DNA from: a bacterium
GTDB lineage: Bacteria; BMS3Abin14
Assembly (NCBI GenBank): GCA_020350725.1
Contig: CP070719.1
Location: forward strand, 1,993,338-2,006,869
DNA length: 13,532 bases
Direction of reading: 5' to 3'
Position numbers and translations under genes: made by a program. Below, piece by piece: positions 2,585 through 8,723 of the stretch; the stretch's first letter is position 1, and every line of letters begins with the position of its first letter. A model generated the notes under the pieces. It was not told the origin of the DNA, did no database searches, and saw nothing but the letters and a program-made list of their open reading frames with translations.

Positions 2585-3415
2585 ATGGGTAAATGCACGT
2601 ACTGTGGAAACTCGGCGGGGCTTTTTCGCCGTTTCCATTCTGAATGCAGGGACAGCTTCGAGAAGGGCCTGTCCCGCATGACGGAGAAGGTGGCCGACAC
2701 CATTGAGAAAGGAACCGATCTTAACGACCTGATCAGCAGTCTCAGGGAGATCTGCCTCGAACATCGTGTGCCGGAAACCTCGATAAAGGATAAGCTGATC
2801 GAAGGCTGGGGCCGGGCCCTCGACCGGTTCCTCGACGACAGCCTTCTCACCGAGGAAGAGGAGGGACGGCTGAGTGCCTTTAAAAGCCATTTCGATCTCT
2901 CGGACGACGACCTGGATCCATCCGGAGCGCTGACGAAGGCCGCCCAGGCGGCCGCCCTGAGGGATATCGTCAGGGGCGTCATGCCGCACCGGCCGGAAAC
3001 CGGTGAACGCATCCCCTTCACCCTCAAGAGGGGGGAAGAGATCGTGTGGCTGTTCCCCGACGTCCACTATTACGTCCAGAAAACGGACCTGGAGTACCTC
3101 GGCGGTTCCTCCACGATCGGCGTGAGGGTGGCGGACGGCGTCTATTTCCACCCCGGCGCGTTCAGGGGAAAACCCCTGAAGACGGACGAGACCGTCCATC
3201 TCGGCAGCGGCACGATGGGCGTAGCGACGAAGCACCTCTATTTCACCGGGGAGAGGATCACTTTCCGCATCCCCTACCGGAAGATCATCTGCTGCGACCA
3301 GCACGAGGACGGTCTGTGCGTGACGCGGTACGGCCCTTCCGCCAAGCCCCAGATCTTCAGGAACGGCGAGGGATGGTTTGTCTACAACCTCGTGAGGAAT
3401 ATCGCCAAGACCTGA
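2585..3415 (+). CDS. Zinc-finger / bacterial PH-like domain protein
   Basis: This 276-residue protein starts at the ATG at 2585 after AGGAGA. An N-terminal zinc-binding motif uses C4, C7, H18 and C21 (CTYCGNS…RFHSEC). A helical, acidic middle section follows (about 25-125). The C-terminal half (about 128-276) is β-rich, with the pattern GTMGVATKHLYFTGERITFRIPYRKI and then AKPQIF, GEGWFVYNL. This matches a widespread uncharacterised family I associate with bacterial PH-like (bPH/GRAM-type) folds. No signal peptide or membrane helix is seen, so it is cytosolic or a peripheral membrane protein. A near-consensus sigma-54 promoter lies 175 bases upstream, and a terminator follows at 3517-3553, so it appears to be a single-gene unit. 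The function is unknown; a regulatory or stress role is inferred only from the promoter type. Confidence 0.8.
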   Translation: MGKCTYCGNSAGLFRRFHSECRDSFEKGLSRMTEKVADTIEKGTDLNDLISSLREICLEHRVPETSIKDKLIEGWGRALDRFLDDSLLTEEEEGRLSAFKSHFDLSDDDLDPSGALTKAAQAAALRDIVRGVMPHRPETGERIPFTLKRGEEIVWLFPDVHYYVQKTDLEYLGGSSTIGVRVADGVYFHPGAFRGKPLKTDETVHLGSGTMGVATKHLYFTGERITFRIPYRKIICCDQHEDGLCVTRYGPSAKPQIFRNGEGWFVYNLVRNIAKT

Positions 3416-4234: not shown

Positions 4235-4624
4235 TTCCCACCTCCTTGTGAGTTATCGTCTATTAACTATTTTACCATATCCCTTTAAAGTATGGTCTTT
4301 TTGTCCGGAGGGCTTTAGCGGGCTGCCTGTCGGTCCTCTGACGGGCAAAGCTGTCCCGTTCCAGGCGGTGCGGGACAGACCGGCTCGGACAAAAGCAGCC
4401 CCCTTGCTGCCTGTTTTGTGCTAGCATGATCGTCAGGCACTTCTCCCCTTGCGGGGCCGGTGACAGCGGGCGGGGCAGCACGAAACGCCGCCGGCAGGAC
4501 GCCTTCCGCCGACGGATGTTGTTGCGGAAAAAGCCGGATCAAACCGGCAGAGGGGTACACGACGGCCGGTGTTTCCTCCGCTGCCGCCAGCGGTTCCGCC
4601 CCCGGGTCACGCTGCTCGCCGGCC
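4235..4624. other. Divergent intergenic region with consecutive stem-loops
   Basis: This 390-base stretch separates the GNAT gene from the kinase gene. An ACCATA-N11-TATGGT inverted repeat (4274-4296) lies in the AT-rich part near the GNAT start and could be an operator. Three stem-loops follow in series: 4325-4346 (GCCTGTC/GACGGGC, one G·U), 4351-4378 (perfect CTGTCCCG/CGGGACAG) and 4389-4419 (ACAAAA-GCAGC / GCTGC-ctg-TTTTGT). No convincing promoter for the kinase operon is visible. The plus-strand frame is open from 4460, but its composition does not look coding before about 4625. Confidence 0.4.
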
Positions 4625-6040
4625 ATGGGTGCATTTCGAGAGACGTTTCGGACAGGAGGGAGGGACGAGATCCTGTTCCGTGACCTGAGCTTCGAGACCG
4701 TCAACGCCTACATCGCCCTGGCCGCGGTGGGCATCAACTTCACCTTCGCGGTCATGGTCCTGATGCGGACTTCCCGGGAGACGATCTACACCACCTTCGC
4801 CCTCATATGTCTCAGTGTCGCCTTCTGGAATTTCGCCGACTTCATGGTGTACACCTCAGGCGAACCGACCTGGCTCCCGGCGGGCGTCTCCCACGCCACC
4901 CCCTGGAAATACCTGGGGCCCGCCGGTTCCGGACCTGCCGTGGGGTTCCTGTTTCACTTCGCCTGCGCCCTGGTGAAGAAAGGGCGGCGGATGATCTTCT
5001 GGATCATCCTGTGCTACGCCCTGGCCGTGATCGTCGGATTCAGCCCTGCCGCCTCCTTTTTCCACCGTGGCCTGAGAACGTTCGTCGACGGAGTCGGCTG
5101 GAACCTGTCTTTTTTCATCGCCCTGTTCCCCTTCATCATGGCCAGCATTGTGATGGTCCTGAGCGCCCTGCACAGGAGCAGCGACGCCGGAGAGAGGGAC
5201 TACCTTCGTTTCATCTCCGCCGCCCTGATCCTCCAGGTCCTCATGGGCCTGACCGACCTGTTCCAGAGGCTGGACCTTCCCCTGCCGCCCCTGGGCCATC
5301 TGGGCAGTTCCATTGGACCCGTCATCCTGGGTATCGGCATCTCCCGCCACCGGAAGGCCTTTGACGTCCTGGCCCAGACCCGAATGAAGATGGACCTTCT
5401 CAGCGAGATGGCCGCCGGTATCACCCACGAGATCCGCAACCCCCTGACGGCCATCAAAGGGATCACGAGGCTGAAGCCGGAGGTGTTCAAAAGCCTTGAC
5501 GATGAGAAGATCAAGGAATATCAGGAGATCGTGAACGAGGAGATCTTCAGGATCGAGGACATCCTGACCAGCTTCAGGGACTCGACAAAACCCATTGTCG
5601 TCGGCCGTGACCGGGTCGTGATCAACGACGTCATCAGGAAGATCGTGAAGCTGATCAACCTCCAGGTCCTCGAGCTGAAGCTGGAGCTTGCCCTCGCCGA
5701 CAACCTTCCGGAGGCGAATGCGGATCCCTCCCTTCTCAGGCAGGTCTTTCTGAACCTGGTCAGGAACGCCTCCGAGGCCTGCGGAAAGGGCGGCTGTCTG
5801 TACATTGAGACCGGTTTCGATGACGATTGGATCTGGACCAGGTTCACCGACAACGGGCCGGGCATTCCCGGGGAGCTCATGGAGAGGATCTTCGATCCTT
5901 TCTTCTCCACCAAGGAGGGCGGCATGGGCATGGGCCTGCCCATCATCAAGAGGATCGTGGACGCCCACCAGGGCAGGATCACCATCGAGGGGGCGTCCCC
6001 CTCGGGGACGAGGGTCACGGTCCTCATCCCCAGGGGTTGA
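4625..6040 (+). CDS. Seven-helix membrane sensor histidine kinase (NtrB-like)
   Basis: This is about 471 residues if started at the ATG at 4625. The start is uncertain: that ATG has no ribosome binding site, while a strong GGAGGGAGGG lies inside at 4655-4664 and points to a CTG at 4673 (8-nt spacing). Seven hydrophobic segments lie at about 25-47, 53-76, 98-117, 122-140, 160-182, 193-213 and 226-240, like a 7TM sensor region. The dimerisation domain has the H-box AAGITHEIRNPL with phospho-acceptor His268. The ATPase domain shows the N-box (QVFLNLVRNASEA, N377 and N381), the G1 box (TDNGPGIP), and the F/G2 region (FDPFFSTKEGGMGMGLPI). It should autophosphorylate at the inner membrane and pass phosphate to the regulator 54 bases downstream. 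The ligand is unknown; no PAS, HAMP or large periplasmic domain is present. Confidence 0.9.
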   Translation: MGAFRETFRTGGRDEILFRDLSFETVNAYIALAAVGINFTFAVMVLMRTSRETIYTTFALICLSVAFWNFADFMVYTSGEPTWLPAGVSHATPWKYLGPAGSGPAVGFLFHFACALVKKGRRMIFWIILCYALAVIVGFSPAASFFHRGLRTFVDGVGWNLSFFIALFPFIMASIVMVLSALHRSSDAGERDYLRFISAALILQVLMGLTDLFQRLDLPLPPLGHLGSSIGPVILGIGISRHRKAFDVLAQTRMKMDLLSEMAAGITHEIRNPLTAIKGITRLKPEVFKSLDDEKIKEYQEIVNEEIFRIEDILTSFRDSTKPIVVGRDRVVINDVIRKIVKLINLQVLELKLELALADNLPEANADPSLLRQVFLNLVRNASEACGKGGCLYIETGFDDDWIWTRFTDNGPGIPGELMERIFDPFFSTKEGGMGMGLPIIKRIVDAHQGRITIEGASPSGTRVTVLIPRG

Positions 6041-6094: not shown

Positions 6095-7441
6095 ATGGAC
6101 CGCATACTCGTCGTGGACGACAGCCGGAACGTCTGTACCGTTCTAAGCGACCTCCTGGAGAGGGAGGGCTACCAGGTCCAGGTCGCCCACAGCTACGATC
6201 AGGCCCTCGACTACATCGAGGGGGACGATCTCAGCGTCGTGATCACCGACCTGAAGATGCCGGGCAGGAGCGGCATGGACCTCCTGGCCTACTCGCGGAA
6301 CCGGAGGCCGGAGGTTCCGGTCATCATGATCACCGCCTTCGGCAACATCGAGGCCGCGGTGGCGGCCATGAAGAGCGGGGCGTTCGATTTCATCACCAAA
6401 CCCATTGACGACGATGAACTCCTGAACGCCGTCAGCCGGGCGATCACCGAGTCGGAGGTCAACCGGGAGATCGTGTCCGGCTTCTTCGAGGAGGATGGCT
6501 CCTTCTCGGTGGACTTTATCGGTACGACACCCGCCGTGCAGGAGATCCTCCAGACGGTCAAGAAGATCGGCCCCACGGAATCCACCGTCCTCATCACAGG
6601 CGAGACGGGGGTGGGCAAGGAACTGATCGCCAGGGCCCTACACCTGGCCGGCGGACGCAGGGGCAGGCCATTCGTCAAGGTCCACTGCGCCGCCATACCG
6701 GAAAACCTGGTGGAGAGCGAGCTGTTCGGTTACGAAAAGGGCGCCTTCACCGGCGCCGTATCCAGCAAGCCGGGAAGGTTCGAGATCGCCCACGGCGGAA
6801 CCCTGTTTCTCGACGAGGTCGGTGAGATCCCCCCCCACATCCAGGTCAAGCTTCTCACCGTCCTTCAGGACACGGCTTTTGAGAGGGTCGGGGGCGTCAA
6901 GACGATCAACATCGATGTCAGGATCATCGCTGCCACGAACAAAGACCTCCGGTCAGCGGTCGCTTCCGGTGAATTCCGCTCCGACCTCTACTATCGGCTC
7001 AACGTCGTCCCGATCCACATTCCGCCCCTCAGGGACAGGAAGGACGACATCATCCAGCAGTCGGAATATTTCCTCATGAAGTTTTCCGCCAAGCACGGCA
7101 GGAAGTACCCCGAGATCCCCACCGACATCATGACCGCCTTCTTCAACTATGACTGGCCTGGAAATGTCAGGGAGCTGGAGAACGTCATCGAGAGGCTGGT
7201 CCTCATGTCCGAGGGGCCGACCCTGGAATCGACCTTCCTGCCCCAGGAGATCTCCGGGCCCGAATCCGTGCAGGAGACGGCCGGCCTCAGGGACGTCGTC
7301 GGCGGCGTGTCCAGGGCCACCGAGAGGCAGATGATCATGGACGCGCTGGGGAAGACGGGTCAGAACAGGACCCGTGCCGCCGACCTCCTGGGCATCAGTC
7401 GGCGGACTCTCCAGAAGAAGATCAAGGAATACGGCCTGTAG
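6095..7441 (+). CDS. NtrC-family sigma-54-dependent response regulator
   Basis: This 448-residue protein starts at the ATG at 6095, spaced from AGAGGGTGG (6081-6089); the in-frame GTG at 6086 is less likely because it falls within that sequence. The receiver domain (1-120) has the acidic pair D8/D9, phospho-acceptor D52 (VITDLKMPG), T80 and K102. The AAA+ domain (about 140-375) has Walker A GETGVGKE (169-176), an exact GAFTGA sigma-54 contact loop (216-221), Walker B LFLDE (237-241), and the arginine-finger region ([13 protein letters not shown]). A Fis-type helix-turn-helix ends the protein (about 408-448, [20 protein letters not shown]). It is the cognate partner of the upstream kinase. All residues needed for phosphorylation, ATP hydrolysis and sigma-54 remodelling are present. 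Its likely DNA sites are the palindromes just after its stop codon. Confidence 0.96.
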
Positions 7442-7450
7442 GCTCTCCAT

Positions 7451-7472
7451 TGGGAATCCAGGTTCCCACATC
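7451..7472 (+). promoter_or_regulatory. Palindromic activator site 1
   Basis: TGGGAA-N6-TTCCCA is a perfect 18-bp dyad, followed by CATC. It begins 10 bases after the regulator's stop codon. An almost identical copy starts 34 bp downstream. Length and symmetry fit a dimeric Fis-type helix-turn-helix, as in NtrC-class enhancers. Binding by the adjacent regulator is inferred. Confidence 0.65.
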
Positions 7473-7484
7473 CCGCGCTCCAAC

Positions 7485-7506
7485 TGGGAAGAGTCCTTCC
7501 CACATC
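7485..7506 (+). promoter_or_regulatory. Palindromic activator site 2
   Basis: This is the second copy of TGGGAA-N6-TTCCCA plus CATC. Its arms are identical to site 1 while the 6-bp spacer differs (gagtcc versus tccagg), so it is the arms that are conserved. It lies about 115 bp upstream of the start expected from the sigma-54-like element at 7582, a normal enhancer distance. Confidence 0.65.
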
Positions 7507-7581
7507 ACCGTACCCTGAACCCGACCCCGAAAAATCCCAAGCAATTCTAAACGGTTGGCCGCTTTTTTCCGACGGTCCGTC

Positions 7582-7597
7582 TGGCACGGCCTTTGAA
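7582..7597 (+). promoter_or_regulatory. Sigma-54-like promoter for the lipoprotein gene
   Basis: TGGCACG-gcct-TTGAA has a perfect seven-base -24 element and correct spacing, but its -12 element is TTGA instead of TTGC. The missing C would weaken but not necessarily abolish sigma-54 binding. The predicted start is near 7608, 54 bases before the ATG at 7662. The two upstream palindromes support it as an activator-dependent promoter. Confidence 0.5.
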
Positions 7598-7661
7598 CTC
7601 CCGGCAGCTAAGACCGGCGAGAGGACAGGAAGCAGTCAATGCAGGGGAAAGGAGGCTCGTC

Positions 7662-8165
7662 ATGAGGAAGATATGGGGTGCATTTCTGGGAATCGTCCTG
7701 CTCACCACGGTTGCCGGGTGCGGGGCCGGACGGACGATGGTCATGAAGCCGCCCGACAGCAAGACCGTAGCAAGCGGGGTAAGAGTCGTCCGCGGGCAAT
7801 CCACAGTCGTCGTGCCGGAGGAAGTCTCCCTTCGCTTCGAGGAGCAGCTGAACAAGCGCCTCTTCCAGGCGGAGGAGGGCAAGGAACCACCCTTTGCCGA
7901 GGGTATGGACCTGAAACTGGTTTACCGGTTCATCCAGTACAACGAGGGTAGTCAATTCGCCCGGTACATGCTTGGGGGCCTTGGCAACTCGGGTGAGGGA
8001 ACCTTGACCGTAAGCGTCTGTTACCGCGACTCGGATGACAACGAGCTCTGTACGATCCAGTCCGAGGGAAAGATCGGAAGCGGATTCTTCGGGGGGTCCT
8101 TCAGCTCGGCGGTGGACAGGTGCGCCGAGGAGATCGCAGGATACACGGTGGCCAATTTCAAATGA
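7662..8165 (+). CDS. DUF4410-family lipoprotein
   Basis: This 167-residue protein starts at the ATG at 7662 after AAAGGAGG. A lipoprotein signal peptide is clear: positively charged MRK, a hydrophobic core, and the lipobox V17-A-G-C20, so Cys20 would be lipidated and the protein anchored in a membrane, probably the outer one. The mature part fits DUF4410 by its signature pattern: FEEQLNKRLF near the start, LVYRFIQYNEGSQFARYMLGG in the middle, then glycine-rich GEGTLTVSV, GSGFFGGSFSSAV and a final helix AEEIAGYTVANF. The family's function is unknown; envelope-associated roles are presumed. The gene follows the two-component operon, with two palindromic sites and a sigma-54-like element between, so it is probably the regulator's target. 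Confidence 0.88.
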   Translation: MRKIWGAFLGIVLLTTVAGCGAGRTMVMKPPDSKTVASGVRVVRGQSTVVVPEEVSLRFEEQLNKRLFQAEEGKEPPFAEGMDLKLVYRFIQYNEGSQFARYMLGGLGNSGEGTLTVSVCYRDSDDNELCTIQSEGKIGSGFFGGSFSSAVDRCAEEIAGYTVANFK

Positions 8166-8198
8166 GGGCCAACCGCCTGGACTTCCCGGGACCTCCTG

Positions 8199-8235
8199 GA
8201 TGGCTGCCGGACCCGCCATCGGTCCGGCAGCCATC
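8199..8235 (+). terminator. Perfect 15-bp hairpin after the lipoprotein gene
   Basis: GATGGCTGCCGGACC / GGTCCGGCAGCCATC is a perfect 15-bp stem with a 7-nt loop, 33 bases after the lipoprotein stop. There is no T-tract (gaatcc follows), so a classic intrinsic terminator is not certain. It could be a tailless terminator, or a barrier that protects the upstream mRNA from exonucleases. Confidence 0.6.
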
Positions 8236-8330
8236 GAATCCAGTCAGCCGGGAATATCCGGGGCAACAGGGGCCTGGAACCGGCCAAAGGATGACCGGTA
8301 CGATTTTTCGTCTGAATTGAGGTGAAAACC

Positions 8331-8723
8331 ATGGAATGGAGTGCGGGTTCGATCAATCTCTATGCCGCCTGGCTGGGCATCCTGGCGGGGTTCCTCGCCG
8401 GGGCGGTGGAAGGCCTGTTCTTCCACCGGGAGGACTGGCGGGGAGGTTATGGCACGTGGCCGCGCCGGATGACGAGGCTCGCCCACATCTCCTTTTTCGG
8501 CATCGGTTTCATCAACCTCGCCTATTCTCTCACCGTCAGGTCGCTGGGGCCGACGGCGCACGTCCCTCTGTCTTCAGGCCTTCTGGTCCTGGGAGCCTTT
8601 GCCATGCCTCTGGTGTGTTACCTGTCAGCTTTTCATAAGGGTTTCCGCCGCCTGTTTCCCCTTCCGGCAGGCAGTCTGATCGCCGCCGTCCTCCTCTTCA
8701 TCCTCAGGGGGTTGATGTCATGA
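8331..8723 (+). CDS. Four-helix integral membrane protein of unknown function
   Basis: This 130-residue protein starts at the ATG at 8331, five bases after GAGGTGA; an in-frame GTG at 8322 falls inside that ribosome binding site. Four hydrophobic segments are visible, roughly 9-28, 46-65, 78-98 and 106-126. A conserved-looking polar stretch links the first two: GLFFHREDWRGGYGTWPRRMTRLAHISFF. The many charged residues, histidines and tryptophans there may form a functional site. I have an impression of similar proteins in other bacteria but know no function. Its TGA overlaps the radical SAM gene's ATG (ATGA at 8720-8723), so the two are translationally coupled and may act in one membrane-associated pathway. 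Confidence 0.8.
   Translation: MEWSAGSINLYAAWLGILAGFLAGAVEGLFFHREDWRGGYGTWPRRMTRLAHISFFGIGFINLAYSLTVRSLGPTAHVPLSSGLLVLGAFAMPLVCYLSAFHKGFRRLFPLPAGSLIAAVLLFILRGLMS

Follow-up and report, generated by a model that had tools for sequence, protein, structure and literature searches.

A kinase-regulator pair, twin dyads and a lipoprotein gene

We analyzed a stretch of bacterial DNA of 13,532 nucleotides (hereafter, the window) in which two short palindromes lie directly between the gene for an NtrC-type response regulator (6095-7441, + strand) and that for a DUF4410 lipoprotein, all on one strand. The regulator combines a receiver domain (Response_reg, PF00072), a sigma-54 AAA+ domain (Sigma54_activat, PF00158) with GAFTGA in its translation, and a Fis-type helix-turn-helix (HTH_8, PF02954), each above its cut-off; the recognition helix reads SRRTLQKK. 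Its gene is adjoined on the same strand by a histidine kinase gene (4625-6040, +; HisKA, 2.4e-10; HATPase_c, 1e-24) that ends 54 bp before it; the kinase has a hydrophobic N-terminal region with multiple transmembrane segments, and is presumably the cognate sensor. The same kinase-then-regulator order is kept in three further genomes (G001, G005 and G011; see below). The initial annotation had described the regulator as an orphan, and this was wrong: in each of the four genomes its gene comes directly after one for a kinase.

We also noted other features around this operon. An inverted repeat (CTGTCCCG-N12-CGGGACAG, 4351-4378) separates the kinase-regulator operon from a divergent acetyltransferase-like gene, and is a possible operator of the former. 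Further upstream, a gene for a trypsin-like protein (730-1809), with a weak match to the N-terminal domain of NARROW LEAF 1, is overlapped by a small ORF (1806-2093) whose product has a secretion-like N-terminus. Elsewhere in the host genome (locus L149, 1,192,000-1,196,500) is a paralogous regulator whose recognition helix (SRRTLQYKLKEYGI) resembles that of the window regulator; no TGGGAA dyad was found near it.

The lipoprotein gene (7662-8165, +) is preceded by a ribosome-binding site (AAAGGAGG upstream); its product has a lipobox (VAGC) and matches PF14366 (6e-8) with 33.2 bits, against a gathering score of 26. Since an inverted repeat (8199-8235, +; arms of 15 bp; a possible transcript 3' end, with no T tract) comes next, the lipoprotein transcript may consist of this single gene. 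The structural model predicted for the protein is of low confidence (mean pLDDT of 68), and in a fold search it resembled, to a similar degree, PelC, CsgG, LptE and TolB N-terminal domains. With several families of outer-membrane lipoproteins thus level, we rejected a family assignment by this route, and a role in outer-membrane export or in the envelope is, for the same reason, only a lead that the model offers. The protein is absent from the 11 other genomes of the family, and we therefore rejected the idea that DUF4410 is a conserved partner of such regulators. Our PF14366 search of 386 genomes returned a match in 12; outside the host genome, none of these matches is flanked by exact or one-mismatch dyads. 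In the literature that we searched, DUF4410 is mentioned by no paper.

The twin dyads are perfect and rare

Nine bases separate the end of the regulator gene (7441) from the upstream dyad (TGGGAATCCAGGTTCCCA, TGGGAA-TCCAGG-TTCCCA; 7451-7468), which is followed by the downstream dyad (TGGGAAGAGTCCTTCCCA, TGGGAA-GAGTCC-TTCCCA; 7485-7502). Both are perfect palindromes that match TGGGAA-N6-TTCCCA exactly; CATC stands after each, and the start-to-start distance of 34 bp corresponds to approximately 3.2 helical turns. The initial annotation had reported two perfect dyads with identical arms, the trailing CATC and the 34-bp period after the regulator gene, and all of this was confirmed.

Three observations lead us to conclude that the twin is not a product of chance: none of 200 shuffled windows contained an identical-arm twin (6-bp arms of whatever sequence, a spacer of 3-12 bp, both copies within 60 bp); the 2,777,163 bases of the host genome hold exactly two copies of TGGGAA-N6-TTCCCA, both of them in the window; and in approximately 1.09 Mb of sequence, identical-arm twins were confined to the window, one exopolysaccharide-activator locus in genome G003, and three pairs with arms of G and C only. 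When 61 genomes of relatives and 12 genomes of the phylum were searched for the exact twin pattern, the window alone contained it, and a motif search of a plasmid collection returned no match.

Near-copies are less informative. Outside the window, our coverage of the host genome consisted of pattern searches and a selection of stretches. Matches with up to two mismatches number 182 in the host genome, compared to 146 for a reversed control pattern. Among the matches listed (first 1.51 Mb), eight of the ten one-mismatch sites lie inside genes, without a strong sigma-54-like site; for that reason we take the intragenic near-copies to be chance occurrences and rejected them as functional sites. 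At 520 kb, two sites with two mismatches each form a pair; it was likewise rejected, there being no sigma-54-like site nearby.

A candidate sigma-54 promoter at enhancer distance

Between the dyads and the lipoprotein gene is a candidate sigma-54 promoter (TGGCACGGCCTTTGAA, TGGCACG-N4-TTGAA; 7582-7597, +), from which transcription would be expected to start near 7608. This -24/-12-like element shares the top sigma-54 score of the window, and a sense-strand match of its quality occurred in the 159-bp stretch in 0.15% of shuffles, the scoring weights being an approximation to the published consensus. Where the GG-N10-GC pattern has GC, its -12 element has GA. The two dyads are 113 and 79 bp from this site (131 bp from the start of the first dyad to the promoter), and, if 7582-7597 is used, their centers are predicted to lie at approximately -148 and -114, which is inside the range of 80-150 bp upstream published for enhancers of sigma-54 promoters (PMC3844500). 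Sigma-54 itself (rpoN) is encoded in the host genome. Neither a sigma-70-like promoter nor a terminator was found in 7300-8350.

The association of such dyads with sigma-54-like sites extends beyond the window. The stretches examined contain 54 distinct dyads with no more than one mismatch, 11 of which are accompanied, at a distance of 30-200 bp, by a strong sigma-54-like site (score of 13.4 or more); the remaining 43 are not. Host-genome members of the eleven include the window pair and sites at 692 kb, at 2.487 Mb and, in front of an SGNH/AlgX-like gene, at 823 kb. Strict sigma-54 matches in the host genome (20) are no more numerous than those of a reversed control pattern, and a TGGGAA-type dyad lies upstream of three of them. 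We regard it as highly probable that the twin dyads act as an enhancer for sigma-54.

Another sigma-54-like site (CGGCACGATATTTGCC, 2395-2410, +), with a score equal to that of the promoter candidate, lies upstream of a gene (2585-3415) for a 276-aa protein with no Pfam or NCBIfam match; further upstream of it are an inverted repeat (2298-2326) and TTTCCA/TTCCCA half-sites.

Putative enhancer architecture at orthologous loci

Orthologs of the kinase-regulator pair are present in three other genera of the family, with regulator identities of 67% (G001), 61% (G005) and 60% (G011); the recognition helix is identical to that of the window regulator in G001, and nearly identical in G005 and G011. 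No exact dyad occurs anywhere in these three genomes. No dyad was seen on the 5.9-kb contig of G005, and no dyad pair on the short contig of G011, which ends approximately 210 bp after the regulator.

Downstream of the G001 regulator there are neither dyads nor a lipoprotein gene; the gene that converges on the regulator instead encodes a 1431-aa BadF/DUF2229 CoA-activase-like protein. This gene is preceded by a strong sigma-54-like site (TGGTACGGTCCTTGCT), upstream of which, near position 1,628,300 of G001, are two dyad-like sequences: TGTGAACGCCTGTTCCCA, with one mismatch, and CGTGAACCGGCGTGCCCG, with four. The second of these is a weak match: approximately 3% of sites are expected to have, by chance, a partner with four mismatches 32-35 bp away (1 of 43 control sites had one). 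The dyad spacing is 33 bp (34 bp in the window), the start of the first dyad is 135 bp from the promoter (131 bp in the window), and the dyad cores are G+C-rich in both cases. We consider this arrangement to be the strongest evidence for assigning the motif to this regulator. It also suggests that targets vary whereas the layout of the enhancer is retained. The initial annotation had treated absence of the dyads from orthologous loci as telling against its reading; this holds for the literal position in G001, but the neighboring gene there is a different one, and it is this neighbor that the dyad pair precedes.

No dyad-promoter pair was found at homologs of the CoA-activase-like gene in other genomes, that of the host included; in these the gene lies away from the regulator, and we therefore rejected it as a shared target. 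The G001 gene (L123:2301-2509) is apparently sigma-54-controlled only where it adjoins the kinase-regulator pair.

The same arms at exopolysaccharide activator genes

Another observation is that the arms of the window dyads recur beside a second set of activators. The 2.487-Mb site of the host genome lies between two activator genes (approximately 2.485-2.489 Mb) that precede exopolysaccharide genes (polysaccharide export, chain-length and sugar-transferase functions). Dyads of the form TGGGWAA-N4-TTWCCCA, some of them imperfect, occur between activator genes in G000, G003, G002 and G011, and in G005 one such dyad stands in front of the exopolysaccharide activator pair. We noted tandem sigma-54 activator genes, with dyads, before an exopolysaccharide locus at L157 (host, 2,483,500-2,490,500), L163 (G003), L206, L210 and L211. 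To judge from their recurrence in five genomes, these dyads would constitute a conserved exopolysaccharide enhancer of the phylum. Bearing in mind that G003 has the activator pair and its dyads, and that no close ortholog of the window regulator was found there, we ascribe the TGGGAA...TTCCCA arm class, in part at least, to the exopolysaccharide activators.

The two kinds of site can nevertheless be told apart. The exopolysaccharide-type sites, to which those at 692 kb and 823 kb of the host genome belong, mostly have A+T-rich cores and repeat at approximately 19-23 or 42 bp, versus G+C-rich cores and a spacing of 33-34 bp in the window and G001; the 823-kb site is a partial exception, in that it has a weak (four-mismatch) partner at 33 bp. 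The recognition helices of the exopolysaccharide activators (SYKALLYK and SYKTLLSK) also differ from the SRRTLQKK of the window regulator. Among the activators detected in G001 (73% complete), none is an ortholog of the exopolysaccharide activators.

Genome G008 (81% complete) offers a further observation: an exact G+C-core dyad (TGGGAACACTGCTTCCCA; L196:2832-2928) with a sigma-54-like site (TGGCATGGTGTTTGCT) 81 bp on, preceding a small secreted outer-membrane-like protein. Neither an ortholog of the window regulator nor one of the exopolysaccharide activators was detected in this genome. We tentatively raise the possibility, without holding it to be likely, that in this small phylum at least two sigma-54 activators (the one of the kinase-regulator pair, the exopolysaccharide pair, and perhaps a third in G008) share these arms and are discriminated by the core (G+C-rich or A+T-rich) and by dyad spacing of approximately three or two helical turns. 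If that were so, core and phasing would be what keeps the regulons insulated, or what permits deliberate cross-talk between them.

A proposed circuit and its alternatives

We hypothesize that the DUF4410 lipoprotein gene has a sigma-54 promoter for which the twin dyads serve as the enhancer (UAS), and that the dyads are bound by the adjoining, kinase-controlled regulator; we consider this reading of the sequence probable, if well short of certain. A signal would activate the membrane histidine kinase, which would phosphorylate the NtrC-type regulator; dimers of the latter would then occupy both dyads, approximately three helical turns apart, where the AAA+ oligomer could build. Looping of the DNA would bring this oligomer into contact with sigma-54 polymerase, held as a closed complex at 7582-7597, and ATP hydrolysis would open the promoter at approximately 7608, leading to expression of the lipoprotein. 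The initial annotation had likewise taken the dyads to be the regulator's motif and the lipoprotein gene to be its direct target. This is still the best reading, given a -24/-12-like site at the expected distance and the parallel in G001, but it is qualified by the use of the same arms at exopolysaccharide activators, by the GA in the -12 element, by the lack of dyads and lipoprotein gene after the G001 regulator, and by G008, whose exact dyad and sigma-54-like site occur with no detected ortholog of the regulator. The additional claim, that the motif would define the whole regulon, fails, because the genome holds no exact copy besides these two and the near-copies are at least partly those of another sigma-54 activator, the exopolysaccharide one.

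The foremost alternative is that the dyads are indeed a sigma-54 enhancer, and the protein that binds them is another activator, above all the exopolysaccharide pair at approximately 2.485-2.489 Mb; the lipoprotein would then be part of an exopolysaccharide regulon, and the adjoining regulator a bystander. Dyads with the same arms and the same length at the exopolysaccharide activator genes of several genomes, including G003 with no close regulator ortholog, are in keeping with this idea, as are the exopolysaccharide-type sites of the host at 692 and 823 kb; the predicted lipoprotein model does resemble PelC, an exopolysaccharide-export lipoprotein, albeit no better than it resembles several other families. 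Nevertheless, we consider this alternative unlikely: the G+C-rich cores and 34-bp spacing of the window dyads do not conform to the exopolysaccharide type, the recognition helices differ, and the window-type arrangement exists in G001, where an exopolysaccharide activator was not detected at 73% completeness.

Less plausible still is that the sigma-54-like site arose by chance, and that the dyads are either operators of an unrelated factor (a repressor or a third activator) or non-regulatory repeats. The imperfect -12 element would fit this explanation, as would the occurrence of equal-scoring sites at approximately 0.5 per shuffled window and the need, in G008, for a third binder or a missing gene. 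Against it stand the position, strand and distance of the promoter candidate, the low frequency with which shuffling reproduces such a site in the 159-bp stretch, the general link of dyads to sigma-54-like sites, and the G001 parallel; we rate it as improbable. Finally, although each dyad could form a 7-pair stem in RNA and the regulator's stop codon directly precedes them, hairpins for termination or transcript processing are very hard to credit and were rejected: no T tract follows the dyads, 7300-8350 has no terminator-like site, the fold is no better than that of shuffled sequences (z of -0.44), and the dyad is met again ahead of sigma-54-like sites in surroundings unrelated to these.

The proposed kinase-regulator circuit supplies a DUF4410 lipoprotein with its first candidate input, and an uncharacterized two-component system with a testable enhancer and promoter. 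A practical corollary is that, in this lineage, a single regulon is not recognizable by the arms alone: since they are shared with the exopolysaccharide activators, scanning by arms only would mix regulons, and searches need the core and the spacing as well.

Comparison with known systems

The closest relative of the window dyads within this lineage is the site of the exopolysaccharide activator pair, which has TGGGAA/TTCCCA arms, the same 18-bp length and a position upstream of a sigma-54 site; it differs in its A+T-rich core, the usual 19-23 bp between dyads, the recognition helix and the genes it accompanies. A more distant parallel is found in Desulfovibrio vulgaris, in which the mapped sites of NtrC-type regulators are palindromes with arms of 4-6 bp and spacers of 3-8 bp that precede sigma-54 promoters and are frequently adjacent to the gene for the regulator (PMC3333781, PMC4641369; Rajeev 2011, Kazakov 2015). 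The window dyads are similarly palindromic, upstream of a candidate sigma-54 promoter and beside a regulator gene, and their 6-bp arms and 6-bp spacer are inside the published range (PMC3333781). The main text of PMC3333781 contains neither GGGAA nor TTCCC, and among the papers listed by a literature search, to go by their titles and abstracts, none deals with the window motif.

With respect to the regulator itself, curated (NCBIfam) cut-offs led us to reject its identification as ZraR, AtoC, NtrC or PrsR. In the PrsK/PrsR system (PEP-CTERM), a membrane kinase and a sigma-54 regulator control exported-protein genes through an upstream motif (PMC1569441). The window likewise has a membrane kinase, a sigma-54 regulator and an upstream motif, but its proteins score below the PrsR and PrsK cut-offs (396 vs 503 bits and 83 vs 300 bits, respectively), and the published motif 1 ends in TTTACA, unlike the window dyads (PMC1569441).

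ZraSR is another instance of a local kinase and regulator, with a very small regulon (PMC7657598); zraP has a sigma-54 promoter (PMC3844500). As with ZraSR-zraP of E. coli and Salmonella, the window combines a local kinase and sigma-54 regulator with one adjoining envelope gene as the proposed target and a probable upstream enhancer, a likeness of organization. Unlike ZraSR, the regulator reaches 387 bits against a ZraR cut-off of 760, the kinase 145 bits against 479 for ZraS, and the proposed target is a DUF4410 lipoprotein rather than ZraP. Most likely, then, the window contains a type of circuit that is ordinary in bacteria, with a docking sequence that had previously been unassigned.
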